Origin: Marinobacter sp.
Lineage (GTDB): Bacteria > Pseudomonadota > Gammaproteobacteria > Pseudomonadales > Oleiphilaceae
Length of the DNA: 64,000 nucleotides
Assembly (NCBI GenBank): GCA_014359475.1
Contig: JACIZI010000011.1
Span: 27,808-91,807 of the forward strand
Direction of reading: 5' to 3'
Shown here: one piece after another, positions 7,603 through 26,443 of the stretch
Layout: every line of letters begins with the position of its first letter
Position numbering within the stretch: position 1 is the stretch's first letter
Notes under the pieces: generated by a model
The model's input: only the letters and a program-made list of their open reading frames with translations
Databases searched by the model: none
Told to the model about the DNA's origin: nothing
Program-made: the position numbers and the translations under genes

Positions 7603-8871
7603 TCAGTTCCCGGCAAAGACCGCCTGCACTTCTTCCGCAATCACCTGTAGCCCCTGGGCGACCATTTCATCGTCCTGGGAATAGGTCACCCGCAGACACT
7701 CATGGCGGTGCCGCCAATGATCCTCTTCCGGCAAGCCCGGGAAGAAATAGTGTCCGGACACCACCAGCACACCCCTGGCTTTCAAGCGCTGATAGAGTTC
7801 CAGGCTGGTGATCGGCAGCCCCGGGAACCATAACCACAGGAACATGGCCCCTTCCGGCTTGTGGATGTACCAGGGGCAGTCACTGCCCTCCATGGCACCG
7901 CTGAAGGCCGCTACCGCTCTCTTCATCTTCGCCTTGTAGAAGGGGCAGACCACGTCCCGGCTCAGCGTCAGGATTTCTCCCGAACGCACCAGGGGCTCCG
8001 CCAGCATGGCTCCGAAACTGCCGGTCGCCAGGTTCATGATGGCGTTGATGCCGGACAAGGCTTTGATAACAGGCTGCGCGGCAATCACAATCCCGGTCCG
8101 CGCAGCGGGCAGGCCAAGCTTGGACAAGCTCAGGCACAAAACGACCTGCTCATTCCACTCCGGCCGGGCATCCACAAATAGCAGGTTGGGGAACGGTGTG
8201 CCGTAGGCACCATCCACAATCAGTGGCACATCGTGTTTTTTGGCCAGGTATTCCAGCCGGGCCAGCTCGTTGTCGGTGATCACGTTGCCGGTGGGGTTGG
8301 TCGGGCGGGATACGCAGATTGCACCGGTATCTTCGGTGACTTCGATGGCATCAAAGTCCAACCGGTACTTGAATTCGTGGTCACCGGTGTAGGTGATCTC
8401 CGGCTCGAAGGCCCGGAACAGGCCCGGCTCGATGCCGGCATCCGCATAGCCGATGTACTCCGGAGCCAGTGGCAGCAGGATATGCTTGCGCGACCCGTCG
8501 CCGTAGTCACCCCCGAACATGTTGAACAGCATGAAGAAAGCGGCCTGACTGCCGTTGGTCAGCGCAATATTTTCAGGCTTCAGACCCCAGTCGTATTCCC
8601 GGTTGAGCAACTCCGCCAGTGACGCGATAAACTGCTTTTCTCCCTGGGGCGGATCGTAGGTACCCACCAGCCGGCGCATACCTTCCTGGCTGGTCACCAG
8701 ATCCGCCAGTACCGACTGCACCCGCGCCTGCACTTGCGGAATGTGGCCGGGATTGCCCCCGCCCATCATGATCATTTCATCGCCGGATGCCAGGGCGTTT
8801 CCCAGGTCGTCCATCAACGAGGTGATGCCGGCCTCGGCAGTAAATTTGCGGCCAAATGCAGAGAGTTTCAT
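7603..8871 (-). CDS. avtA: Valine--pyruvate aminotransferase
   Basis: A 422-residue fold-type I PLP aminotransferase. The opening MKLSAFGRKFTAEAGITSLMDDLGNAL and the block MMGGGNPGHIP are characteristic of AvtA rather than other aspartate-aminotransferase relatives. The PLP lysine is in LSLSKLGLPAARTG, and VSRPTNPTGNV carries the cofactor-contacting Asn. It interconverts valine/2-ketoisovalerate and alanine/pyruvate. It is probably cotranscribed with the DUF416 gene two bases upstream. Confidence 0.93.
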   Translation of the reverse strand: MKLSAFGRKFTAEAGITSLMDDLGNALASGDEMIMMGGGNPGHIPQVQARVQSVLADLVTSQEGMRRLVGTYDPPQGEKQFIASLAELLNREYDWGLKPENIALTNGSQAAFFMLFNMFGGDYGDGSRKHILLPLAPEYIGYADAGIEPGLFRAFEPEITYTGDHEFKYRLDFDAIEVTEDTGAICVSRPTNPTGNVITDNELARLEYLAKKHDVPLIVDGAYGTPFPNLLFVDARPEWNEQVVLCLSLSKLGLPAARTGIVIAAQPVIKALSGINAIMNLATGSFGAMLAEPLVRSGEILTLSRDVVCPFYKAKMKRAVAAFSGAMEGSDCPWYIHKPEGAMFLWLWFPGLPITSLELYQRLKARGVLVVSGHYFFPGLPEEDHWRHRHECLRVTYSQDDEMVAQGLQVIAEEVQAVFAGN

Positions 8872-8873
8872 GG

Positions 8874-9467
8874 TCAGAGCTCGATTCCGAGATTGCTGAT
8901 GCCGTTGTTGGCGGCCATGTTCCGGGTTTCTTCAACAAACCGGCCTGTCGGGGTGCGCTGCTTCTTGAGGGCCAGCACCAGATCCCGCTGGAACAGCTTG
9001 TCTTCCTTCATCAGCGGGTGCTGCTCCAGCAAACGAACCAGTTCATCTTCATCCAGGCCGTCCCCTTCTGACAGCTCGATAAAGTTCATCACGGTCGCGG
9101 TGGCCAGTCGGGTGGCATCGGAGGCCCGGTGTTTCGCCGGATTGAGCCGGTTCAGCAGTGCCTGCTCCAGCAGCTGGCAGAAATCGAAGGCCGGATAGAC
9201 GCCGTAGGCATCGTACTCATCCACGTCCGGGGACAGGGATTCCAGTCGCGCCAGCATCTTCGGGATTTCCGACTCGGAAGGCCGCTCCTCCAGCATCTCC
9301 CAGCAGTTATCCAGCAGCAGGCGCATTTTGGCACCGGTTTTCAGGCCGACTGCATCGGCAAACAGGGCATAGTTGGGAAAGCTGCGCTCGGCCAGGGCGA
9401 GCAGGAAGGTGAATTCCCGCCAGCCCTGCAGTTGCGCCACTGCTTTGATGAACTGGTTTGCATTCAC
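8874..9467 (-). CDS. DUF416 (YjaG-like) protein
   Basis: A 197-residue soluble protein. LQGWREFTFLLALAERSFPNYALF at the N-terminus and EYDAYGVYPAFDFCQLLEQAL in the middle fit the DUF416/YjaG family, whose function is unknown. It lies two bases before avtA on the same strand. Confidence 0.75.
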   Translation of the reverse strand: MNANQFIKAVAQLQGWREFTFLLALAERSFPNYALFADAVGLKTGAKMRLLLDNCWEMLEERPSESEIPKMLARLESLSPDVDEYDAYGVYPAFDFCQLLEQALLNRLNPAKHRASDATRLATATVMNFIELSEGDGLDEDELVRLLEQHPLMKEDKLFQRDLVLALKKQRTPTGRFVEETRNMAANNGISNLGIEL

Positions 9468-9507
9468 GCTGTTGCTCCGTTTGCGTTACGCCAACCGCTG
9501 TATCCGC

Positions 9508-10074
9508 TCAGGCGCGGGGCAGCGTGACTCCGGTCTGGCCGAGGTATTTGCCGCCACGGTCCTTATAGCTGGTTTCGCAGACTTCGTCGGATTCGAAGAA
9601 CAGCATCTGTGCCACCCCTTCGTTGGCGTAGATTTTCGCCGGCAGGTTGGTGGTATTGGAGAACTCCAGGGTCACCTGCCCTTCCCATTCCGGCTCCAGC
9701 GGCGTGACGTTGACGATGATGCCACAACGGGCGTAGGTGGACTTGCCCAGACAGATAGTCAGCACGTTACGGGGAATGCGGAAATACTCCACGGTGCGCG
9801 CCAGGGCAAAGGAATTCGGGGGGATGATGCATACGTCGCCGGTGAAGTTCACGAAGCTGTTGTCGTCGAAGTTCTTGGGGTCGACAGTGGCGGAGTGTAC
9901 GTTGGTGAAGATCTTGAATTCGTTGCTGCAACGTACGTCGTAGCCGTAGCTGGAGGTGCCGTAGGATATGACCCGGCCCTTTTCGCTCTCACGGACCTGA
10001 ACAGCCTCGAAGGGCTCGATCATGCCGTGTTGTTCGGACATCCGGCGAATCCACTTGTCGGATTTGATGCTCAT
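9508..10074 (-). CDS. dcd: dCTP deaminase
   Basis: A 188-residue Dcd that makes dUTP from dCTP to supply thymidylate synthesis. The family start [12 protein letters not shown] is present, then [20 protein letters not shown], the catalytic-region motif [24 protein letters not shown] and a C-terminal [12 protein letters not shown]. Length and motifs are canonical. A long inverted repeat occupies the 5' intergenic region. Confidence 0.96.
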
Positions 10075-19159: not shown

Positions 19160-19801
19160 ATGAACAAGCAGAAACGCATCGAGATATTTACCCGGCTGCG
19201 GGATGCCAACCCCGAGCCGACCACGGAACTCAACTACTCAACCCCCTTCGAATTACTGGTTGCCGTCATTCTCTCAGCCCAGGCCACCGACGTGGGGGTC
19301 AACAAGGCCACGGCCAAGCTGTTCCCGGTTGCCAACACACCGGAGGCCATTCTGGCACTGGGTGTGGACGGGCTGAAGGAGTACATCAAGACCATTGGCC
19401 TGTATAACAGCAAGGCGGAAAACATCATCAAGGCCTGCCGTATGCTCGTCGCAAAGCACGGCGGCGAGGTGCCGGACAACCGGGAAGATCTGGAAGCGCT
19501 ACCCGGTGTGGGCCGCAAAACCGCCAATGTCGTATTGAATACGGCCTTTCGCCAACCGGCCATGGCGGTGGATACCCATATTTTCCGGGTATCCAACCGC
19601 ACCGGCATTGCCCCGGGCAAAAATGTGCTGGAAGTTGAAAAACGCCTGATGCGGCTGGTACCCAAAGAATTCCTGATGGATGCCCACCACTGGCTGATCC
19701 TGCACGGACGCTACACCTGCACCGCCCGCAAGCCCAAGTGCGGGGCCTGCATCATCGAGGATCTCTGCGAGTTCCCCCAGAAGAGAGATTACATGGACTG
19801 A
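19160..19801 (+). CDS. nth: Endonuclease III
   Basis: A 213-residue DNA glycosylase/AP lyase for oxidised pyrimidines. The helix-hairpin-helix LPGVGRKTANVVLN carries the catalytic Lys, the Asp follows in MAVDTHIFRVSNR, and the 4Fe-4S motif C-x6-C-x2-C-x5-C spans residues about 189-205 (CTARKPKCGACIIEDLC). nth at the end of the rsx operon is the standard gammaproteobacterial order. The accessory island begins about 40 bases downstream. Confidence 0.97.
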   Translation: MNKQKRIEIFTRLRDANPEPTTELNYSTPFELLVAVILSAQATDVGVNKATAKLFPVANTPEAILALGVDGLKEYIKTIGLYNSKAENIIKACRMLVAKHGGEVPDNREDLEALPGVGRKTANVVLNTAFRQPAMAVDTHIFRVSNRTGIAPGKNVLEVEKRLMRLVPKEFLMDAHHWLILHGRYTCTARKPKCGACIIEDLCEFPQKRDYMD

Positions 19802-19843
19802 CGGCGGGCCGGGTTATTATCCGCCTCATCAACGCCCCCTTCC

Positions 19844-20089
19844 TCACAGGTATACACCCAAATTCCGATAAGATCGGATTTCGACCGCCGTAGTCCAGAG
19901 CGTGTCACCGACTTCCTCAAGGTAATGGTTTTCTTGCAAATCATTCGCTGTTGCTACCCGCTCAACAAACAAACACCACCCCGGATCTTCAGAATCAAAA
20001 CGGGCTGCAGCCCAACAAATTGAAACTCCGGCACGCGGCATCTGGACGCAATGATGTATGAGGTGGGACAGGCTATCCATTAATTTCAT
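19844..20089 (-). CDS. Hypothetical protein of the cassette array, 81 aa
   Basis: A small soluble protein I do not recognise. The ATG at 20089 is chosen because GAGGAG lies ten bases upstream; a longer frame from 20143 would run into the preceding small gene. The sequence is Trp-rich for its size (AGVSICWAAARFDSEDPGWCLFVERVA). It overlaps the 3' end of the frameshifted small gene at 20073-20268, so the two look like a coupled pair. It is the last gene of the accessory island before nth. It could be one half of a two-gene cassette, but no function can be named. Confidence 0.5.
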   Translation of the reverse strand: MKLMDSLSHLIHHCVQMPRAGVSICWAAARFDSEDPGWCLFVERVATANDLQENHYLEEVGDTLWTTAVEIRSYRNLGVYL

Positions 20090-20268
20090 CCACAAATATC
20101 TCCTCTTCGACAGCATCCGCAATGGCGCGATCCAATCGTGCAAGCAAATCCCAGAATGACTCTTCAGGCTGGCGAACTAACATCACAAGACACTGGTCTT
20201 CATCATATGCGGTCGCCGCACAGGGAGGCTTGGTCCCAGTGTCTGGCCACCGAGACCGACGAGTTCAT
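20073..20268 (-). pseudogene. Frameshifted small hypothetical gene
   Basis: Read on the minus strand from ATG 20268, one frame gives MNSSVSVARHWDQASLCGDR then a stop. Shifting frame within the next few codons gives TAYDEDQCLVMLVRQPEESF, then WDLLARLDRAIADAVEEEIF and VDEING with a stop at 20073. The join would make an acidic protein of about 65 residues with an amphipathic helix near its C-terminus. A single-base indel near 20212-20220 would explain the break. The 3' end overlaps the start of the 81-aa gene. It may instead be a shorter real gene starting at a downstream GTG. Confidence 0.45.
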
Positions 20269-20300
20269 GTCGCAATTAACTCAGAAGGCAGCGGCGCGCA

Positions 20301-20603
20301 TTAGCGCGTCCGCTGGCCTGACTTGCTAGCAGAGATGTCCTTGAGGCCGCCGGAGACATACTTGTGCAGGACACTGGAAACGAGGGACTGGTAAGGAAGA
20401 CCCTCTTCCAACGCCCGACGTTGAAGTGCCTCCAGGTCGCGACTGGAGATGCGTATATTTATCCGCTTGTCTTTCTTGAACGTTTCTTCCGCTGCCTTGA
20501 TCAGGTACTCTCGACGATCGGCATCCAGATCTGACTCGAACTCTCCGGATTCGTATGCCTCCAGCAGCTCTTGCTCTTCGGGATCCAATTTGGTCTTGGC
20601 CAT
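20301..20603 (-). CDS. BrnA/CopG-like ribbon-helix-helix antitoxin
   Basis: A 100-residue protein. The core KRINIRISSRDLEALQRRAL (residues 46-65) is a ribbon-helix-helix DNA-binding motif, followed by EEGLPYQSLVSSVLHKYVSG, typical of CopG/BrnA-type antitoxins. The N-terminus is acidic (DPEEQELLEAYESGEFESD). The gene lies one base downstream of the toxin-like gene at 20605-20883 on the same strand, so toxin precedes antitoxin as in BrnT/BrnA loci. It is expected to neutralise the toxin and repress the operon. Confidence 0.75.
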   Translation of the reverse strand: MAKTKLDPEEQELLEAYESGEFESDLDADRREYLIKAAEETFKKDKRINIRISSRDLEALQRRALEEGLPYQSLVSSVLHKYVSGGLKDISASKSGQRTR

Positions 20604-20604
20604 G

Positions 20605-20883
20605 CTACCCCCCTAGAAATGTCTTGGTGGCTTTGAGACTGGGGATGACCGTTTTGAGAAAGATCTCTCTATCATTCTCGACGTACGGCACCAGCCAGGC
20701 GTAATCGTCAATCCGAACCACAAGCAGGCGTTGATTCGGGTACTTGTCCCTGTTGGGGTGAGGGTGAGGTCCATCATCAAGTAAACCACCAGACTGAAGA
20801 GCAAACAGGACATCTTCGAAGGAAACTCCGCGCTCGCTCATCAACTGCTGGTTCTTTTCAGCATTCCAGTTAATTTGCTTCAT
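20605..20883 (-). CDS. BrnT-like toxin of a type II toxin-antitoxin pair
   Basis: A 92-residue protein, MKQINWNAEKNQQLMSERGVSFEDVLFALQSG, whose opening resembles BrnT/DUF497 RNase toxins (W-N/D-x-x-K-N-x-x-x-x-x-x-x-G-V-S-F-E-D). The middle (GGLLDDGPHPHPNRDKYPNQ) departs from classic BrnT, so it is a diverged relative. It is the first gene after the attC-like core at 20921, in the array's main orientation, paired with the antitoxin one base downstream. RNase activity is inferred from family resemblance. Confidence 0.65.
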   Translation of the reverse strand: MKQINWNAEKNQQLMSERGVSFEDVLFALQSGGLLDDGPHPHPNRDKYPNQRLLVVRIDDYAWLVPYVENDREIFLKTVIPSLKATKTFLGG

Positions 20884-20920
20884 GGGACGAGTCTAGCAGA
20901 GTGTGTGCCTATTGGCATCT

Positions 20921-20995
20921 TGCTAACGCCAGCGCACAACGGCGCCCTTGTAATGGAGGCGCAGCCGCAATGAAAAGGGCATCCGGCGGCGACAG
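20921..20995 (-). other. attC-like site, truncated (attC-C)
   Basis: Core TGCTAAC at 20921-20927 (GTTAGCA on the minus strand) is followed by CGCAGCCGCAATG and other stretches shared with the sites at 24409-24492 and 25092-25176. The outer core expected near 21005 is missing; the sequence runs into an IS91-family transposase remnant instead. On the minus strand the next cassette starts straight after the core. Confidence 0.5.
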
Positions 20996-20997
20996 CG

Positions 20998-21131
20998 GGG
21001 CTCGCAAAACCCTCCATCGGCTGCAGTTACTCCTGCACGTGATGCTGCCCTCAAGCGACACCCTGGCTCAACCCCGTCAGCAACGCACTTGTCCCTGCTG
21101 CGGCAAACCCATGTCCATGACCTTCTGGTGA
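20998..21131 (+). pseudogene. IS91-family transposase, C-terminal remnant (copy 1)
   Basis: The plus-strand frame gives ARKTLHRLQLLLHVMLPSSD, then TLAQPRQQRTCPCCGKPMSM and TFW with a stop at 21129. The end with CPCCGKPM matches the zinc-ribbon tail of IS91-type Y2 transposases, and a parallel tail (CPCCGQAM) occurs at 23457-23579. The N-terminal and catalytic parts are absent, so the element is dead. The left border cuts an attC-like site. Confidence 0.6.
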
Positions 21132-21336
21132 CGCTCCTGTCGCTGGCCCGTAATCCGGCGACGATGTCCGACCTGAACTCTCTGACACCCTCCATGCACA
21201 CCCCAAAGGGAGGAAACCAAAGCTCCTTATGACACAACAAACAGGACCCCAACCGGCTATCGGTTCCACCGATGGTCTCGGGTCCGTCTGGCCTGGCGAA
21301 AATGACCGACCAGGACCAGGACAAAACCACCTCTCA
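21132..21336. other. Putative IS91 terminal (origin) region, non-coding
   Basis: About 205 bases follow the transposase remnant and end at GTTC (21337-21340). IS91 elements terminate next to GTTC or CTTG with a subterminal hairpin region, so this is probably the origin end of a dead copy. It holds the palindromic ACCGACCAGGACCAGGAC area but no gene. Confidence 0.4.
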
Positions 21337-21430
21337 GTTCACCGCCGCTATTTCTTAATAGAGAAGCACCGGGCTCGTCCAACACCGGATCAGGTCGCGG
21401 CTGCGCGCGACCTATCCTTATTTGTTATGC
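21334..21430. repeat. 97-bp direct repeat, copy 1 (IS91 border plus attC)
   Basis: This block is repeated at 23736-23832 with a few mismatches and small indels. Both copies begin at CTCAGTTC, pass through GCTATTTC.TTAATAG and end with the 54-nt attC-like site. The same junction of a mobile-element border and an attC thus occurs twice, about 2.4 kb apart. Confidence 0.85.
21377..21430 (-). other. attC-like recombination site, 54 nt (attC-E)
   Basis: On the minus strand the site runs from core GCATAAC (21430-21424) to core GTTGGAC (21383-21377), the latter fitting GTTRRRY. Between them GGAT-AGGTCGCG pairs with CGCGACCTGATCC, leaving one unpaired G, the extrahelical base typical of folded attC strands. 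The sister copy at 23779-23832 is nearly identical. Confidence 0.65.
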
Positions 21431-21449
21431 TCTCCTTGAGGTGCCACCA

Positions 21450-21477
21450 TGTGTATCATGAGCCACATTTATACACA
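21450..21477 (+). promoter_or_regulatory. Operator-like palindrome before vapBC
   Basis: TGTGTAT (21450-21456) and ATACACA (21471-21477) form an inverted repeat with a 14-base spacer, ending 14 bases before the vapB GTG. The position suits autoregulation by a VapB/VapC complex. Confidence 0.5.
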
Positions 21478-21491
21478 CACATAGGTGCAGC

Positions 21492-21686
21492 GTGAGAACG
21501 AACATTGTCATTGACGACCAATTGATGAACGAAGCCCTCAAGGCCTCCGGTTACGAGACCAAAAAAGAGGCCGTTGAGCAAGGTCTAAAGCTCCTTGTGC
21601 AAAAGAGCAAGCAGCAGCAGATTCGAAATTTGCGAGGCAAGATCAAGTGGGAAGGAGACCTGGATGAAATGCGGAGTGCCAGGTGA
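21492..21686 (+). CDS. vapB: VapB-family antitoxin
   Basis: A 64-residue protein from a GTG start. MRTNIVIDDQLMNEALKASG with YETKKEAVEQGLKLLV is the AbrB/RHH-like VapB antitoxin pattern (DUF2191 type), and the C-terminal part RNLRGKIKWEGDLDEMR is the expected toxin-binding tail. Its stop overlaps the vapC start (GTGA). The pair runs against the main direction of the cassette array and has its own operator-like repeat upstream. Confidence 0.85.
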   Translation: MRTNIVIDDQLMNEALKASGYETKKEAVEQGLKLLVQKSKQQQIRNLRGKIKWEGDLDEMRSAR

Positions 21687-22084
21687 TACTGGTGGATACC
21701 AGCGTCTGGGTCGACTATTTCAACGGCGCCGAGAGCCCACAGACTGATCTGCTGGACTCTTCGATAGTCGAGGGATCAGTCGCGATTGGCGACCTCATAT
21801 TCCTGGAGATCCTCCAAGGGATTCGCAGTGACAAGGAGTACCGCCAGACCAAACAAAGCCTATTGACGCTGGATCAGCATGAAATGTTTGGCAGAAAGAT
21901 GGCCGGAAAGTGCGCCGACAATTATCGAGCACTCCGGAAAAAGGGGATTGCGATCAGAAAAACCGCCGATATCATCATCGCGACCTTCTGTATAGAGAAC
22001 GACCTCCCCCTACTTTTCCTGGATCGCGACTTCATCCCCTTCGTTGAGCACTTAGGCCTCGAACCGGCCCTAAGAGAAACATAA
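21683..22084 (+). CDS. vapC: VapC-family PIN-domain toxin
   Basis: A 133-residue PIN-domain RNase. Acidic catalytic positions are visible: Asp in MILVDTSVWVDYF, Glu in FLEILQGIRSD, Asp in IRKTADIIIATFC and Asp in LLFLDRDFIPF. It starts at GTG 21683, coupled to vapB. VapC toxins cut initiator tRNA or rRNA in studied cases; the target here is unknown. The TAA stop lies inside the core of the attC-like site at 22079-22162. Confidence 0.9.
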   Translation: MILVDTSVWVDYFNGAESPQTDLLDSSIVEGSVAIGDLIFLEILQGIRSDKEYRQTKQSLLTLDQHEMFGRKMAGKCADNYRALRKKGIAIRKTADIIIATFCIENDLPLLFLDRDFIPFVEHLGLEPALRET

Positions 22085-22162
22085 CGCCCGCGCCCGCCAT
22101 CACCGGTGGCAAAACCGGAGCAAAGCGGAGGTTTTGGCATCCGGTGGATGGCCTGGTTAGCA
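22079..22162 (-). other. attC-like recombination site, 84 nt (attC-D)
   Basis: On the minus strand the site runs from TGCTAAC (22162-22156) to GTTATGT (22085-22079), with GGGCGTTATG at the 3' end like Vibrio repeats. The interior is a long imperfect hairpin (GGCCATCCACCGG against CCGGTGATGG, and CAAAACC against GGTTTTG). It lies just after the stop of the 98-aa minus-strand gene, as expected for that cassette. Confidence 0.6.
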
Positions 22163-22190
22163 CTGCTCAACTGAACACCTGTGGCTAAAG

Positions 22191-22487
22191 TCAAAATGGT
22201 ATTCCATCCTCGTCTTCTGTTGCACCTGATTCGGTAGACGGCTCAGGACCCAAAAGGGCGTCTTCAACCGGCATCAGCTCCCACAGCTCGTTCTGATGGA
22301 GCCAGATCGGATCAGCATTCTCCTCAATGAACTGATCTACAGGCATACCATCCACGGTTGGTGGCCGCTTTATTCTGACTTGCTTGCCGCTCATAAAGAC
22401 CCACTGGTACTTCCTTTGCCGCTCTGCCTTCGCGGCTTTCTTTGCTCTCTTTTGAGCCGGAGTGAGCTTTTTCTTAACCTTTGTCAT
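22191..22487 (-). CDS. Hypothetical cassette protein, 98 aa
   Basis: An unrecognised protein with a very basic N-terminus (MTKVKKKLTPAQKRAKKAAK) and an acidic C-terminus (STESGATEDEDGIPF); the middle KYQWVFMSGKQVRIKRPPTV is probably a small beta fold. It starts about 20 bases after the attC-like core TTAGCAC (22506-22500, minus) and stops about 30 bases before attC-D, so it is a complete one-gene cassette in the main orientation. The charge pattern could suit nucleic-acid binding, but that is only inference. Confidence 0.6.
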   Translation of the reverse strand: MTKVKKKLTPAQKRAKKAAKAERQRKYQWVFMSGKQVRIKRPPTVDGMPVDQFIEENADPIWLHQNELWELMPVEDALLGPEPSTESGATEDEDGIPF

Positions 22488-22508
22488 ATCTGAACTTTTT
22501 GGTGCTAA

Positions 22509-22712
22509 TCGGGATAGGGAGGCACCTCACGGCACCTCTCCCCCCACACCACCGGGCATACGGATCACGTACCACGGCGGTTCGGCTGATTGAGTTGTTC
22601 AACGCTCAACAAGATCCGGTAACCCCAGCGACAGGAAGTACTGGCGGGGCAAGGCTTGCGCCAGACCCGGACTGCGGCTCAAGCGCCACGGGCCATGAGC
22701 AGATTTGGCCGT
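22509..22712 (-). pseudogene. Group II intron 3' remnant with reverse transcriptase tail
   Basis: The minus strand reads AKSAHGPWRLSRSPGLAQAL then PRQYFLSLGLPDLVER with a stop at 22599. The phrase HGPWRLSRSP is typical of the C-terminus of group II intron reverse transcriptases of bacterial class C. After the stop the DNA continues as GAACCGCCGTGGTACGTGAT and GGTGGTGTGGGGGG, resembling intron domains IV-VI, and ends at CCTATCCCGAT. Next comes TAGCACC, an attC-core-like 3' exon. The rest of the intron is lost. Confidence 0.6.
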
Positions 22713-22745
22713 GTTCCAAGCCAACCTTACACTCACGCCGCGCTT

Positions 22746-22834
22746 TCGCAACTGGCGGTAGCCGGCGCCGGAGCGATAGCGTAGGGAACCAAAAGCGCCA
22801 CGCTTTTGGCGTCCGGTTGGCCGCCTTGTTGGAC
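22746..22834 (+). other. attC-like site in the opposite orientation (attC-G)
   Basis: Core TCGCAAC (22746-22752) and core GTTGGAC (22828-22834) bracket arms GGCGGTAGCCGGCGCC and GGCGTCCGGTTGGCCGCC, which pair with bulges, and a perfect inner hairpin CCAAAAGCG-CCA-CGCTTTTGG. The GTTGGACGA end equals the 3' ends of attC-E and attC-F, but here on the plus strand. It could be a rearranged site between the intron and IS91 remnants. Confidence 0.4.
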
Positions 22835-22921
22835 GAAGCCGCTACGCGGCAGAGGCGGTCCAAATCGTCTGTAATCCTCTGAGTCCCTTCCATGTCGGGA
22901 GGGCCTCCGAGGAGAGGCACC

Positions 22922-23104
22922 ATGATTGCTCAAGACCATGCCCGATTCCAGTCCCTGTATCAACGCTACCTCACCGAACTGACCCTGTGGGGCAAGAGCG
23001 ACAAGCCCATCGATCTGTATGCCCGTTGTCTGCGCCAGATCAGCGAGTATTTCGACACCTGCCCGGATCAGCTTGGCACCGATCAGCTCCAGCAGTATTT
23101 CAGG
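22922..23104 (+). pseudogene. Tyrosine integrase-like N-terminal fragment linked to IS91
   Basis: From ATG 22922 the frame gives MIAQDHARFQSLYQRYLTEL followed by TLWGKSDKPIDLYARCLRQI and SEYFDTCPDQLGTDQLQQYF. This is the SAM-like N-terminal core-binding domain of integrases that accompany some IS91-family transposases. At about 23104 the reading frame leaves the family and a transposase-like segment begins in another frame, so most of the integrase is deleted. It has a ribosome site (GAGGAG) before the ATG but no catalytic domain. Confidence 0.6.
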
Positions 23105-23579
23105 CGCAAAGCGCCTATCCGTCCTGCGGCCATCGCAGCTGTCCGGCCTGTCAGCACGGCACCAACAACCAATGGCTGGACCGGCAGCGGCAGAAGCTGT
23201 TGCCGGTGGACTATTATCTGGTGACCTTTACCCTGCCGGCCCAGCTCAGAGGCCTGGTTTGGCACCATCAGCGACGGCTCTATCACGCCCTGTTCTCGGT
23301 GGCTCAGGCCACCCTGAACCAGTTTGCCGGCAATGACCGGCGCATCGGCAGTGACCTGGGGCTGGTGGGGGTGTTGCACACTCATTCCCGGCGACTCGCC
23401 TTCCATCCCCATGTGCATTTCGTGGTGCCCGGCGAACCCTGCAACGGCTGCAACTGCTCCTGCGCACACCACTACCCGAGACGCTGCCCGCCAAAAAGCG
23501 CACGCCAAGACTCTGTCCCTGCTGCGGTCAGGCCATGAATGTCACCCTGAGGCGCCGGCCCGACGCTCGCCGACGATGA
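23097..23579 (+). pseudogene. IS91-family transposase remnant (copy 2)
   Basis: One frame encodes YPSCGHRSCPACQHGTNNQW with LPVDYYLVTFTLPAQLRGL and ends the recognisable part at HPHVHFVVPG near 23432, with the zinc-binding N-terminus (CGHRSCPACQ) and the HPHVH motif of Y2/HUH transposases. A second frame from 23457 gives LLRTPLPETLPAKKRTPRLC and PCCGQAMNVTL, the C-terminal zinc tail, with a stop at 23577. The region between HFVVPG and the tail, where the catalytic tyrosines should be, is missing. The gene is dead. Confidence 0.7.
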
Positions 23580-23735
23580 CACACCACCCATACCATCACC
23601 CTCATGCACCGGATCAGGAGGCACAGGATAGCCTATGAAAGATTGAAACCCCTTTACCGCCAGTGGTTCAACCGCCGGCTTCAGCCTCGCTCGGCCCGGG
23701 AAAAGTGCCTTCCCGCCAAAGACCCATCCGGCCCC
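23580..23735. other. Putative IS91 terminal region, copy 2, non-coding
   Basis: About 155 bases lie between the transposase tail and GTTC at 23739-23742, the same layout as copy 1. No gene is seen in it. Confidence 0.35.
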
Positions 23736-23832
23736 TCAGTTCCCCGAAGCTATTTCCTTAATAGAAGCACCCGGGTTCGTCCAACCCCGGATCAGGTCGC
23801 GGCTGCGCACGACCTATCCTTATTAGTTATGC
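23736..23832. repeat. 97-bp direct repeat, copy 2 (IS91 border plus attC)
   Basis: Near-identical to 21334-21430. It begins CTCAGTTC and ends with the attC-like core GTTATGC. The downstream sequences differ at once (vapB leader in copy 1, the toxin stop in copy 2). Confidence 0.85.
23779..23832 (-). other. attC-like recombination site, 54 nt (attC-F)
   Basis: On the minus strand GCATAAC (23832-23826) leads to GTTGGAC (23785-23779), with the stem AGGTCGTG/CGCGACCT and one unpaired base as in attC-E. It begins one base after the TAA of the YoeB-like gene, the normal place for that cassette's attC. Confidence 0.65.
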
Positions 23833-23833
23833 A

Positions 23834-24097
23834 TTATTCGTAGTGGCTCCAGAGCCTGAGGACTTTCACCACTTGCTCGTCCTCTAACACTTGGTAGGCC
23901 AGGCGATGCTGAATATTGATGCGGCGTGAATAGGCCCCCGCAAGATCACCAATGAGTTTCTCAAACGGAGGTGGTTTGCGGTATGGATCTTCCGCTATCA
24001 GCGCTAAAAGTTCCTGGGCCTTTGGTTTGAGGCCGCTGGAGGCCAACTTCTTTGCATCTCTCTGGGCTTGCTTGGTGTAAACCAACTTCCATGTCAC
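23834..24097 (-). CDS. Txe/YoeB-family toxin
   Basis: An 87-residue RelE-superfamily mRNA interferase. MTWKLVYTKQAQRDAKKLAS opens the fold, and the C-terminal run GAYSRRINIQHRLAYQVLEDEQVVKVLRLWSHYE is the YoeB signature, with the expected Arg, His and Tyr catalytic residues near the end. The start overlaps the stop of the antitoxin gene by four bases. YoeB toxins cut mRNA at the ribosome. The pair follows the main orientation of the array. Confidence 0.9.
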   Translation of the reverse strand: MTWKLVYTKQAQRDAKKLASSGLKPKAQELLALIAEDPYRKPPPFEKLIGDLAGAYSRRINIQHRLAYQVLEDEQVVKVLRLWSHYE

Positions 24098-24336
24098 CAG
24101 TCCAGCTCCTCATCGCATTCATCCACGGGGGTATCCATCCCCTCACGAATAGACTCCCGCATACCTGGTACGGAGAGCAGATAAAGTGTTTCCTGAATTG
24201 CAGACCAGTCTTCCTCGGAAACCAGAACGGCTTTGTTCCGCTTACCCATGATGACGATTGGTTGGTGGGACTCGGCGGTCTCGTCGATCAACCGATATAG
24301 GTTGCTGCGCGCCTCAGTTGCTGTGATTCCGGTCAT
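24094..24336 (-). CDS. YefM/Phd-family antitoxin
   Basis: An 80-residue antitoxin. MTGITATEARSNLYRLIDETAESHQPIVIMGKRNKAVLVSEEDW is the Phd/YefM DNA-binding half, followed by a helix (AIQETLYLLSVPGMRESIREGM) and an acidic tail for toxin binding. It precedes and overlaps the YoeB-like gene. The promoter at 24368-24396 carries an inverted repeat suited to autoregulation. Confidence 0.9.
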   Translation of the reverse strand: MTGITATEARSNLYRLIDETAESHQPIVIMGKRNKAVLVSEEDWSAIQETLYLLSVPGMRESIREGMDTPVDECDEELDW

Positions 24337-24367
24337 GACGCACCTCTTGCGTGTTCAAACTTCCATC

Positions 24368-24396
24368 AAGTGTACGCCTATGGGCACGTACGTCAA
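24368..24396 (-). promoter_or_regulatory. Promoter/operator of the yefM-yoeB pair
   Basis: On the minus strand TTGACG (24396-24391) and ACACTT (24373-24368) are 17 bases apart, about 31 bases before the antitoxin ATG. An inverted repeat GTACG (24372-24376) and CGTAC (24387-24391) lies within the promoter. Confidence 0.5.
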
Positions 24397-24408
24397 GACG
24401 AACGCTTT

Positions 24409-24492
24409 GCAGAACGCCTGCAGCATGCGCGCCCACGCAATGGAGCCGAAGGCGCAATGTAGTGGGCGTCGCCGTGCCTGCAATGGTTAGCA
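24409..24492 (-). other. attC-like recombination site, 84 nt (attC-B)
   Basis: Minus-strand core TGCTAAC (24492-24486) leads to GTTCTGC (24415-24409). It aligns along its whole length with attC-A at 25092-25176, sharing GCAGCATGCG, AATGGAG and CGTCGCCGTGCCTGC. A second, shifted outer core GTTCGTC lies a few bases beyond, so the exact boundary is uncertain. Confidence 0.6.
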
Positions 24493-24496
24493 CTTG

Positions 24497-24526
24497 TTGA
24501 CGCCTGCGTATATGCTGATAATATAC
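24497..24526 (+). promoter_or_regulatory. Promoter with operator palindrome for brnTA
   Basis: TTGACG (24497-24502) and TAATAT (24519-24524) are 16 bases apart. A perfect inverted repeat GTATAT-N7-ATATAC (24508-24526) covers the -10 element. The brnT ATG at 24531 follows within a few bases and has no Shine-Dalgarno, so the transcript may be leaderless. Confidence 0.55.
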
Positions 24527-24530
24527 TTTT

Positions 24531-24842
24531 ATGATCAATTGGGCACAAGTTACTGGCTTTGACTGGGACCAAGGTAACTCCCGCAAAAATGCGGAGAAAC
24601 ATGGCGTAAACCAGTCTGAGGCGGAAGAAATTTTCTTTAATGAGCCGCTTCTGGTGCTGGAAGACTCCAAACACAGCCAGACTGAGGCCCGTTTTCATGC
24701 CCTTGGTGAAACCGATGATGAGAGATTACTCCACATCACGTTCACACTGAGGCAGAACGGTACACTGATTCGGGTGATTTCCGCTCGCGACATGCACCGA
24801 AAAGAGAGGGCTGTTTATGAGCAAACCAAAAAAGATGCCTGA
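24531..24842 (+). CDS. brnT: BrnT-family toxin
   Basis: A 103-residue DUF497/BrnT RNase toxin: VTGFDWDQGNSRKNAEKHGVNQSEAEEIFF carries the family start, then RFHALGETDDERLLHITFTLRQNGTLIRVISARDMHRKER, including the conserved R-x-I-S-A-R-x-M/D-x-x-x-E-R block. The ATG at 24531 has no ribosome site and sits on the edge of the predicted promoter. The antitoxin gene overlaps its end by 26 bases. The pair is inverted relative to the flanking attC sites. Confidence 0.92.
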   Translation: MINWAQVTGFDWDQGNSRKNAEKHGVNQSEAEEIFFNEPLLVLEDSKHSQTEARFHALGETDDERLLHITFTLRQNGTLIRVISARDMHRKERAVYEQTKKDA

Positions 24843-25089
24843 GTTCAAAACTGAAGCACAAGAACGGGAATTCTGGGAAACCCACGATTCCACCGACTAC
24901 CTGGACTGGAGCCAGGCCAAGCAGGCTTCGTTCCCGAAACTGAAACCCTCTACCAAGACGATTTCACTCCGGTTGCCGGAAACTCTGCTTGATCGGATCA
25001 AAATCGAAGCCAACAAGCGGGATATGCCTTATCAATCGCTGATCAAGGCTTGGCTTGCGGATGATGTGAACGACAGCCGTCGGACCTGA
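24817..25089 (+). CDS. brnA: BrnA-family antitoxin
   Basis: A 90-residue antitoxin with an N-terminal extension (MPEFKTEAQEREFWETHDST) and a C-terminal ribbon-helix-helix domain (KTISLRLPETLLDRIKIEANKRDMPYQSLIKAWL), the standard BrnA layout. It overlaps brnT by 26 bases and probably represses the operon through the GTATAT/ATATAC repeat. The stop is two bases before attC-A. Confidence 0.9.
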   Translation: MSKPKKMPEFKTEAQEREFWETHDSTDYLDWSQAKQASFPKLKPSTKTISLRLPETLLDRIKIEANKRDMPYQSLIKAWLADDVNDSRRT

Positions 25090-25091
25090 GG

Positions 25092-25176
25092 TGCTAACGC
25101 CCGCAGCATGCGTGGCTTTGGAATGGAGGCGAAGCCGCAATGGAAAAGACGTCGCCGTGCCTGCGATTGTTAATGC
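25092..25176 (-). other. attC-like recombination site, 85 nt (attC-A)
   Basis: On the minus strand GCATTAACAATCGCAGGC begins the site, close to the 5' end of classical attC sites, and GCGGGCGTTAGCA ends it. The inner part GGCTTCGCC can form a small hairpin. The TAA of the zinc-ribbon gene (25172-25170) falls within the first core, a common cassette feature. Confidence 0.65.
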
Positions 25177-25553
25177 TTTTGCTTGCGGCCCTTTGCAGAA
25201 CCATGACCTTGGTGCTGAGACAGCGGCTCCGCACACTGATGAATAACCTCATCGGATTCGTAGTCCGTTACTTTTTCCACGTACCGATCATTTTCACGAT
25301 CAATCAACATTGTTCGGTGTACATGTTTTTTTCTGCTTCGAGAGAAGCTTGGCCCAGTACGCTCTTCTATAAATGGTTTTTTCTGACCTGGTCGCCTCCC
25401 TTTGAGGCCCAGACCATCATAGGCGATTACCCGCTCCACTATACTGACGTGCACGGCTTTGCGCGTATCTCCACACTCGGGACATACTGAATCACTTTCA
25501 TCCAACTGTAATCCACAGCCCAAACACTCAATTGACTCTGATGTATCTGTCAT
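25170..25553 (-). CDS. Hypothetical zinc-ribbon cassette protein, 127 aa
   Basis: An unrecognised protein with an N-terminal zinc ribbon, ECLGCGLQLDESDSVCPECG (two CxxC pairs, residues about 10-28), followed by a basic region and a His/Gly-rich tail. The ATG at 25553 is chosen because it follows GTTAATGCCT, an attC-like cassette boundary; the frame also opens from 25583. Its stop lies inside attC-A. The ribbon suggests metal or nucleic-acid binding, but no family is recognised. Confidence 0.6.
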   Translation of the reverse strand: MTDTSESIECLGCGLQLDESDSVCPECGDTRKAVHVSIVERVIAYDGLGLKGRRPGQKKPFIEERTGPSFSRSRKKHVHRTMLIDRENDRYVEKVTDYESDEVIHQCAEPLSQHQGHGSAKGRKQKH

Positions 25554-25583
25554 AGGCATTAACATTTGTATATAAGTCCCCAA

Positions 25584-25873
25584 GACCGCTTTCCCGATGA
25601 CTCATATCTCCAGTCAGATTTCCTGAAAGCCAAGCAGAAAATTCCGGAAGGTCAATGAGCTACGATTCTGGATCGTATTCTGGACCCAGTAAAAACTGGT
25701 CGTTAAGACTAGTATCCTGTTTTTTCCGGATGGCGCAACCTGATGAAAATAAATGAGAAAACTCCATCTCGTTCATTGGGCCTGAATCACGCCCCCAAGA
25801 CCGCATTTCAGTTGCGAGAAGGAATTCAATACGCTGTATATCAAGAGCCCTTCACTTCTTTTAGTAAAGAGCC
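25584..25873. other. Gene-free edge of the accessory island
   Basis: About 290 bases between the outermost cassette and the chalcone-isomerase-like gene. No convincing gene, integrase remnant or attI-like site is seen, although an integron integrase would be expected at this edge. A short AT-rich stretch near 25840-25870 precedes the neighbouring stop. Confidence 0.4.
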
Positions 25874-26443
25874 TTATTTACCCAGCAGCTCCTTCTTGAG
25901 ATCTTTCTGGGCCGGCTTATCGGAAAGCCAGATGCCGAAAAGGATTTTCTTGAAGCGCAGATCGCCGATGGTGGCAAGTTCCTTGCCGTTTTTGGATGCA
26001 CGGACCCCGTTGCCGGGCAGATACGCCAGCTCGAATGTATCCCCTTTGTTGATCTCGTCCGAAAACACGTCCAGAAAGGTATACACTTCCTCCGGAATGG
26101 CTGAGAGGTCGCCGTCCGTGGAATTGCGGAAACCCTCCATGGTCGCGTCTTTCATCCGCTCGCTGGTGATCATATCTGAAACGATATGCAGAATGAGCAC
26201 CTGGGGCTCGTCGGCATTGATAATGGCCCGGGCATCGGTTGTTTCTTCCGGGAGATAAAGGCTCGCCACATACTGATCCATGAACCACTTGGAGCGATCC
26301 CCTGCCCCGTTCAGCACCAGGGTCTTACCGTCAAGTTTATAGGTTTCCGGGATATTCACCCCGTCCAGGGTGCGGGCACCAATGGACATTACCGGGCCCA
26401 GTGCCAGAGAAAAAACCAGCAGAAAGTTAAAAAGAGATCGCAT
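25874..26443 (-). CDS. Chalcone-isomerase-like exported protein
   Basis: A 189-residue protein with a signal peptide (FNFLLVFSLALGPVMSIGA) and a chalcone-isomerase-like domain: DGVNIPETYKLDGKTLVLNGAG, WFMDQYVASLYLPEET, ERMKDATMEGFRNSTDGD and LRFKKILFGIWLSDKP. Bacterial members are periplasmic and of uncertain function, and there is no sign of flavonoid metabolism here. It is separated from rpoS by a terminator. Confidence 0.85.
   Translation of the reverse strand: MRSLFNFLLVFSLALGPVMSIGARTLDGVNIPETYKLDGKTLVLNGAGDRSKWFMDQYVASLYLPEETTDARAIINADEPQVLILHIVSDMITSERMKDATMEGFRNSTDGDLSAIPEEVYTFLDVFSDEINKGDTFELAYLPGNGVRASKNGKELATIGDLRFKKILFGIWLSDKPAQKDLKKELLGK

Follow-up and report, generated by a model that had tools for sequence, protein, structure and literature searches.

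A probable decayed chromosomal integron in Marinobacter and the IS91-type elements located in its attC sites

The 64,000-nucleotide stretch of a Marinobacter sp. genome analysed here (the window; GCA_014359475.1, contig JACIZI010000011.1) contains, between nth and the rpoS region, what is very probably a decayed chromosomal integron that has lost its integrase gene (intI) by deletion, but has kept the attachment site attI and at least six gene cassettes, four of them toxin-antitoxin pairs, and that has received a putative group II intron and, twice, an IS91-type element. The integron remnant is an already known kind of array, and the IS91-type element is the more surprising of the two. IS91-type elements that encode a tyrosine recombinase of their own probably represent a further class of elements that target attC, the recombination sites of cassettes: they would insert at G|TT of the R'' box in the orientation opposite to the cassettes, possess an attC-like end, rebuild an attC box on their other side, and leave a cassette-like layout in an array that would remain recombinable. 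They range from Marinobacter to plasmids of Vibrionaceae and a class 1 resistance integron.

Remnant of an integron between nth and the rpoS region

A preliminary description of the window had proposed a cluster of attC sites lacking an integrase (CALIN) at this position, which is borne out by the presence of several attC, the lack of an adjoining intI and an empty site in relatives. Of 120 genomes sampled from the genus, 106 encode the Chalcone_3 protein, whose gene separates the array from rpoS, and loci from 30 of these 106 genomes were compared, one being the window's own. In this comparison, which the preliminary description had suggested, the site is empty in all 29 loci of relatives: nth and the Chalcone_3 gene converge side by side, their aligned ends 49-88 nt apart. 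The flanking genes are as follows.

19160-19801, plus strand: nth, an open reading frame (ORF) on the left flank of the insertion, adjoining the Chalcone_3 gene in every one of the 29 loci of relatives
25874-26443, minus strand: Chalcone_3 (chalcone isomerase-like) gene, right flank, adjoining rpoS (Pfam PF16036 and synteny), with its stop codon at 25874

A covariance model (R1) was built from 12 attC, none from the window: six came from other genomes, where they were obtained by joining the two flanks of an element insertion, and six from elsewhere in the same genome, on other contigs. With R1, the attC search that had been recommended gave five matches at E ≤ 5 in the 64-kb window, every one on the minus strand and inside 20274-25175; three are firm (E = 4e-7, 1e-5 and 0.007) and two weak (0.27 and 0.37). 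Taking a CALIN as at least two closely spaced attC, the window has five matches on one strand within 4.9 kb, three of them at E ≤ 0.007. Of the six attC listed previously, four stand (24409 and 25092 firmly, 22079 weakly and 20921 as a partial site), whereas 21377-21430 (only E = 3 with R1) and 23779-23832 (no match) are right ends of the IS91-type element. Two attC were absent from that list, one matched by R1 (20274-20331) and one split and recognised by eye (22746-22834). The sites of the array are as follows.

25092-25176, minus strand: attC1 (R1 match 25092-25175, 32.0 bits, E = 1e-5), its R'' box GCATTAAC complementing the cassette start GTTAATGC
24409-24492, minus strand: attC2 (R1 37.4 bits, E = 4e-7)
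23826-23833, minus strand: R'' box of attC3 (TGCATAAC), separated from the remainder of attC3 by element copy a
22746-22834, minus strand: remainder of attC3, with an R'' box rebuilt by the left end of the element (by eye on the sequence; no R1 match)
22079-22162, minus strand: attC4 (R1 14.4 bits, E = 0.37, lost with filters off), its R'' box GTGCTAAC complementing the cassette start
20921-20994, minus strand: attC5, truncated on the R'' side (R1 14.9 bits, E = 0.27, partial match 20921-20956), with its R'' box at 21424-21431
20274-20331, minus strand: attC6, with a degenerate R'' box, absent from the first list (R1 21.0 bits, E = 0.007)

In a true cassette, the first bases past the crossover (G|TTRRRY) complement the R'' box of the same cassette. 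Between the starts of cassettes 1 to 6 and their own R'' boxes, 27 of 30 variable positions agree, or 44 of 48 if near-constant positions are included, and only two of the 720 possible permutations of the pairing reach 27 of 30, the second because cassettes 2 and 4 share the same boxes. The leading G of cassette 4, which in the sequence is replaced by the end of a group II intron, was typed in for this comparison and lies outside the 30 positions. Cassette 1 has its stop codon inside its R'' core and its ATG 9 nt past the core.

Beyond cassette 1 lie two segments associated with the lost integrase.

25559-25660, minus strand: predicted attI, with the crossover core G|TTA at 25563/25562, followed by intI in other genomes
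25661-25839, plus strand: putative former intI upstream region, sharing homology with the sequence ahead of a truncated intI on C7, another contig of the genome; intI itself apparently deleted

Part of 25540-25860, mostly the first hundred bases from 25559, is present in 23 of the 120 genomes of the genus, including that of the window. At 11 of 19 attI-like loci in other genomes, intI (incomplete in two of the 11) begins 217-225 nt beyond the segment in the same relative orientation, with segment identities of 73-79%. Window positions 25560-25822 are 73% identical to the region directly upstream of the truncated intI on C7, and a longer alignment reaches 25839, where homology ends 30-40 nt short of the expected start of intI, so that the site falls short of a complete integron with intI beside attI. 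The observation that the window has no integron integrase holds at the level of its contig: none of the 14 intI-model matches listed genome-wide is on contig C3, to which the window belongs. With attI and a portion of the sequence upstream of intI still in place (25559-25839), the site is read as a decayed integron, more than a bare CALIN. As part of this highly probable explanation, the intI once located beyond attI would have been deleted with a breakpoint at approximately 25840. The array would then illustrate one route of chromosomal integron decay, in which the loss of intI leaves attI and toxin-antitoxin cassettes in place.

Several results weigh against this explanation. R1 is weak on 20921 and 22079 and misses the split site at 22746-22834; when run with filters off over 6.3 kb, it scores 24409 and 25092 lower, loses 22079, and reports 21377-21430 at only E = 3. 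Furthermore, 8 of the 19 attI-like loci have no intI in the stretch examined, which for one of them (L177) ends at a contig end. These loci are L173, L177, L183-L185, L187, L188 and L191, and integrons without integrase may be common in the genus Marinobacter.

It is very unlikely that no integron ever existed here and that an integrase acting in trans placed the cassettes singly at a chance site, as an off-target CALIN: intI is indeed present elsewhere in the genome, and attC of the same family are spread over several of its contigs, but the window retains attI together with a further stretch of about 180 nt from upstream of intI, beginning exactly at the recombination core. REP-like or chance repeats can be set aside with near certainty, for although some of the sites are alike along their length, the model matches are restricted to the array, the cassette boundary rule, attI and the empty site all speak for cassettes, and homologues of the repeats occur in other cassette arrays. 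A repeat at 19809-19886 that was considered as a seventh attC proved to be coding (a ParE-type fragment). Rfam at the gathering level gave no match in the window.

Structure, targets and orientation of the IS91-type element

The repeat of 81 bases that occurs at 21377 and again at 23779 forms the right end of an element of IS91 type, oriented opposite to attC. The element is represented in the window by two incomplete copies, which cover all but the last bases of 23779-23832 (copy a) and of 21377-21430 (copy b).

22829-23826, plus strand: element copy a, internally deleted, matching element positions 1-273, 1157-1488, 1892-1932 and 2217-2314
20995-21424, plus strand: element copy b, a right-end remnant matching element positions 1890-2314 and 96% identical to C37:1-393

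Both the recombinase and the transposase of copy a are truncated (Zn_Tnp_IS91, Y2_Tnp and weak Phage_int_SAM_4 matches). On contig C28 of the same genome, another copy is aligned over 2040 of 2314 positions (84% identity) and ends at the contig end. The right end is present in 14 of 163 genomes of the family, in some as short partial matches only, and is 100% identical over 79-82 bases in seven genomes (G000, G004, G064, G070, G081, G096 and G150). The full element in G070 is 2314 bp long, from TTGAACGAAGCCGC to TTATTTG|TT, and the termini are fixed in 14 copies that have both ends. Occurrence of the same ends on 2314-bp elements rules out 21377-21430 and 23779-23832 as cassette attC. The case also cautions that counts of cassette sites can be inflated by the attC-like ends of elements of this kind.

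The full-length element encodes an IS91 transposase (NF033538, 349 bits against a cut-off of 125) and a tyrosine recombinase, which matches Xer-type models best, none above its own cut-off, and scores 136 bits against the integron integrase model (cut-off 265). Recombinase genes of this type are also found beside other IS91 transposases. The Marinobacter transposase had no match among plasmids at E 1e-80; at E 1e-20 there were 306 records, all below 60% identity. The element of locus L192 had no match in an E. coli genome collection and one other partial match among plasmids. On the Vibrio campbellii plasmid pVIBHAR (L195, 801-930), approximately 130 bp ahead of a GNAT gene match the right end of the element only, and two further plasmid records match the same right-end part only.

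Joining the flanks of the 14 two-ended copies restores, by inspection, an attC in eleven (one of them partial) and a group II intron end in one (L103). When distinct insertions are counted by their left ends, 25 of 30 have attC flanks, a reading by eye and not a model result, L103 again has the intron end, and one insertion in L194 is ambiguous. At E ≤ 0.01, R1 matched nine of the 20 left junctions tested and none of 20 control stretches; one match (L223) lies off the junction. In the nine junctions the match extends six bases into the element, and therefore the left end of the element supplies the R'' box.

Orientation is uniform. All 74 attC matches (E ≤ 0.05) are opposite to the strand of the element, in 22 of 32 element loci, the other ten loci being without a match. 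The strand of the element was taken from its termini, except at L114 (DNA match) and at L138 and L140 (transposase gene only), and some of the 74 matches are training sites of R1. Sites within one array are not independent, so the effective unit is the locus, with 22 of 22 in agreement. The opposite orientation is also seen at L192 and L196, two loci on plasmids, one of which has a right-end remnant only; six further loci are without a match. No copies of the element in normal orientation at R' or attI were seen. On the E. coli plasmid RCS41_p, the element is located between the aadA1 cassette and qacEdelta1, inside the attC beside aadA1, with the cassettes on the other strand; a copy in Marinobacter fuscus has the same 25-base left flank as the RCS41_p copy.

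On the other side of the balance are insertions that do not follow this pattern and limits on what the model recognises. Among the 30 insertions read by eye, L113, L115 and L149 lack attC flanks and L103 borders the end of a group II intron; by inspection, joining the flanks of L113 or of L115 gives no attC either. R1 calls only 9 of 20 left junctions, five of these nine being in the training set; with filters off it calls only 5 of 20, and one control stretch is then matched at E = 0.53. Leaving aside the six junctions that served in training, the count is 4 of 14. A pairing score, an earlier version of which had given no useful result for the junction flanks, separates junctions as a set from a background that includes true attC (p = 7e-7), but does not separate them singly.

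The right end resembles an attC in its folding. The alignment of nine diverse right ends extends to Photobacterium, Salinivibrio and E. coli plasmid elements with transposases that share only 40-44% identity with the query. In the inner stem of eight pairs, 95.8% of cells are paired and eight cells are changed on both sides, and none of 500 shuffles reaches either value; by other measures, a count of four such pairs is attained by 10 of 500 shuffles, and a count of five pair types by 34 of 500. Versions of the stem slid out of register have at most one cell changed on both sides. The L'' arms of attC carry an unpaired extra base, and most of the right ends likewise have an unpaired base in their 5' arm (by inspection). 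In copy a, the boxes GTTGGAC, within the right end, and GTCCAAC (22834-22828) match at seven of seven positions. It is doubtful that the hairpin of the right end could serve as an attC when read in array orientation, because R1 gives it at best E = 3.

Possible mode of insertion and comparison with known systems

These features are consistent with a mechanism in which the HUH transposase would yield single-stranded circles whose junction may fold into an attC-like hairpin. The recombinase of the element would then join the circle to a folded attC, within the R'' box at G|TT, on the strand that the integron integrase (IntI) does not use. The attC-like right end and the TTGRAC left end would leave attC-like sites on both sides of the insertion, and therefore the array could still recombine if an integrase acted in trans. 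The strand choice opposite to that of IntI would make the determinants of attC strand polarity directly testable. If this mechanism is correct, attC hairpins are a niche for further machinery besides the integron integrase, group IIC introns and IS1111-type elements.

The principal alternative, which is a serious possibility although somewhat less than an even one, is that the HUH transposase alone targets attC through an exposed CTTG- or CTGG-like tetranucleotide, and that the role of the recombinase is limited to resolution or circularisation. CTTG/GTTC targets are a known trait of the IS91 family, and the left flanks of the element end mostly in CTTG, CTGG or TTTG; these same letters, however, are the usual attC spacer letters on the other strand, and CTTG is frequent in genomes, yet 25 of 30 insertions are in attC by eye.

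It would be surprising if the elements were instead ordinary cassettes put in backwards by IntI, the right-end hairpin being the attC of the cassette. The junction of such a circle would form a full attC with the extra base on the arm usual for attC, and the element shares junctions at G|TT with IntI. Cassettes inserted by IntI, however, follow the orientation of their array; IntI is an unlikely inserting enzyme, because it would give the orientation opposite to that seen, the element being opposite to attC at each of the 22 loci (of 32) with matches. Moreover, three of 30 flanks (L113, L115 and L149) are not attC, and full-length copies encode their own recombinase as well as the HUH transposase.

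Targeting of attC by an IS91-type element with its own recombinase, the mechanism favoured here, differs from the known systems with which it was compared. IS1111-attC insertion sequences have a DEDD transposase, unlike the element described here, which combines an HUH transposase with a tyrosine recombinase and attC-like ends; IS91 is the only NCBIfam match listed for its transposase, with none of the DEDD (IS110/IS1111) type. The IS91 family itself (NF033538) shares the transposase type, but the element additionally carries a gene for a tyrosine recombinase and has a right end resembling attC, 25 of its 30 insertions being in attC by eye. The IS1111-attC group, as cited in PMC9229058, resembles the element in consisting of insertion sequences that target attC. 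Group IIC-attC introns, as treated in parts of PMC9229058 and PMC7923331, likewise insert in attC, usually opposite to the cassettes, but are RNA-based retroelements, unlike the present DNA element with its IS91 transposase.

An IS91-like element that adjoins attC, as here, is ISShvi3 of a Shewanella integron, said to give a new gene cassette structure (PMC9229058). That paper reports no insertion sequence that interrupts attC, and the parts of it considered here mention neither a tyrosine recombinase nor a targeting rule. A CALIN of Halorhodospira halochloris (PMC7923331) is similarly rich in toxin-antitoxin genes and resembles the window in having several attC, no adjoining intI, BrnT/A and other type II pairs, and truncated group II introns (in the window, a putative remnant). 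The window differs in retaining attI with a portion of the sequence upstream of intI and in having IS91-type elements that interrupt attC, and the Marinobacter genome has intI elsewhere, in contrast to the H. halochloris genome, for which that paper reports no intI. Literature searches found no account of IS91-type targeting of attC; most subscription journals and ISfinder were outside their reach, which leaves priority uncertain.

Cassette contents and other integron pieces in the genome

The preliminary description had recognised four toxin-antitoxin cassettes, which it supposed might stabilise the array, and family matches were obtained for all of them (cassettes 2, 3, 5 and 6), although only weakly for the pair at 20301-20883. 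The contents of the array, from attI towards nth, are as follows.

25170-25553, minus strand: ORF of cassette 1 (DUF7129 match below cut-off only; no family above cut-off)
24817-25089, plus strand: BrnA/CopG antitoxin gene of cassette 2 (PF12441, 125 bits)
24531-24842, plus strand, reverse to the cassette direction: brnT-like toxin gene of cassette 2 (PF04365, 88 bits)
24094-24336, minus strand: Phd/YefM antitoxin gene of cassette 3 (PF02604, 69.8 bits)
23834-24097, minus strand: YoeB/Txe toxin gene of cassette 3 (TIGR02116, 87.4 bits)
22508-22582, minus strand: putative remnant of group II intron domains V-VI (RF00029, 26.8 bits, below the gathering score of 40)
22191-22487, minus strand: ORF of cassette 4, 98 amino acids (no family match above cut-off)
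21683-22084, plus strand: VapC toxin gene of cassette 5 (NF047959, 159 bits)
21492-21686, plus strand: VapB antitoxin gene of cassette 5 (PF09957, 58.4 bits)
20605-20883, minus strand: putative BrnT/DUF4258-like toxin gene of cassette 6 (DUF4258, 23 bits, and BrnT, 17.7 bits, both below cut-off)
20301-20603, minus strand: CopG/BrnA-type antitoxin gene of cassette 6 (PF12441, 31.8 bits, cut-off 28)
19809-19886, minus strand: parE-type toxin gene fragment at the distal array end beside nth (82-91% identical to stretches in L206-L211; ParE by eye from the translation)

The group II intron remnant is oriented like the cassettes, whereas introns of attC are usually opposite to them. PADLOC gave no match for the seven array proteins submitted. 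A 71% identical homologue of 19877-20226 is located between two attC matches on a contig of Marinobacter ELB17, and a 45-base stretch (20215-20259) is repeated with 89% identity at 10 places in five other genomes of the genus among the matches listed.

R1 gave 21 matches at E ≤ 0.5 across the whole genome (150 of 3380 candidates scored), six of which are training sites; five are on C10 and five on C37, both of which are contigs bearing intI or a piece of it. A complete integron is present on C10 (853-9743, L030), with intI on the plus strand (8817-9743) and five attC matches on the other strand; this intI is only 43-47% identical to the type paired with the attI of the window. Contigs C37 (L032) and C36 (L031) have a second set of intI pieces at their ends, accompanied by the five attC matches on C37 and by a reverse transcriptase gene, of group II intron type by eye (C37:3546-4880). 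These pieces were first taken as one gene spanning two contigs, but each frame runs into other sequence at the break.

The truncated intI on C7 (78038-78415; L033, 12039-12416) lies beside an attI like that of the window. It is accompanied by two genes that by eye resemble a toxin-antitoxin pair, and a fragment of IS91 type lies beyond it at the contig end. Four attC matches are found on the 5.7-kb contig C43 (70-3197, L206). Between two ORFs of the C10 array is a near-perfect palindrome (C10:2685-2737, L030), in which half of the element's right end is joined to the reverse complement of that half.

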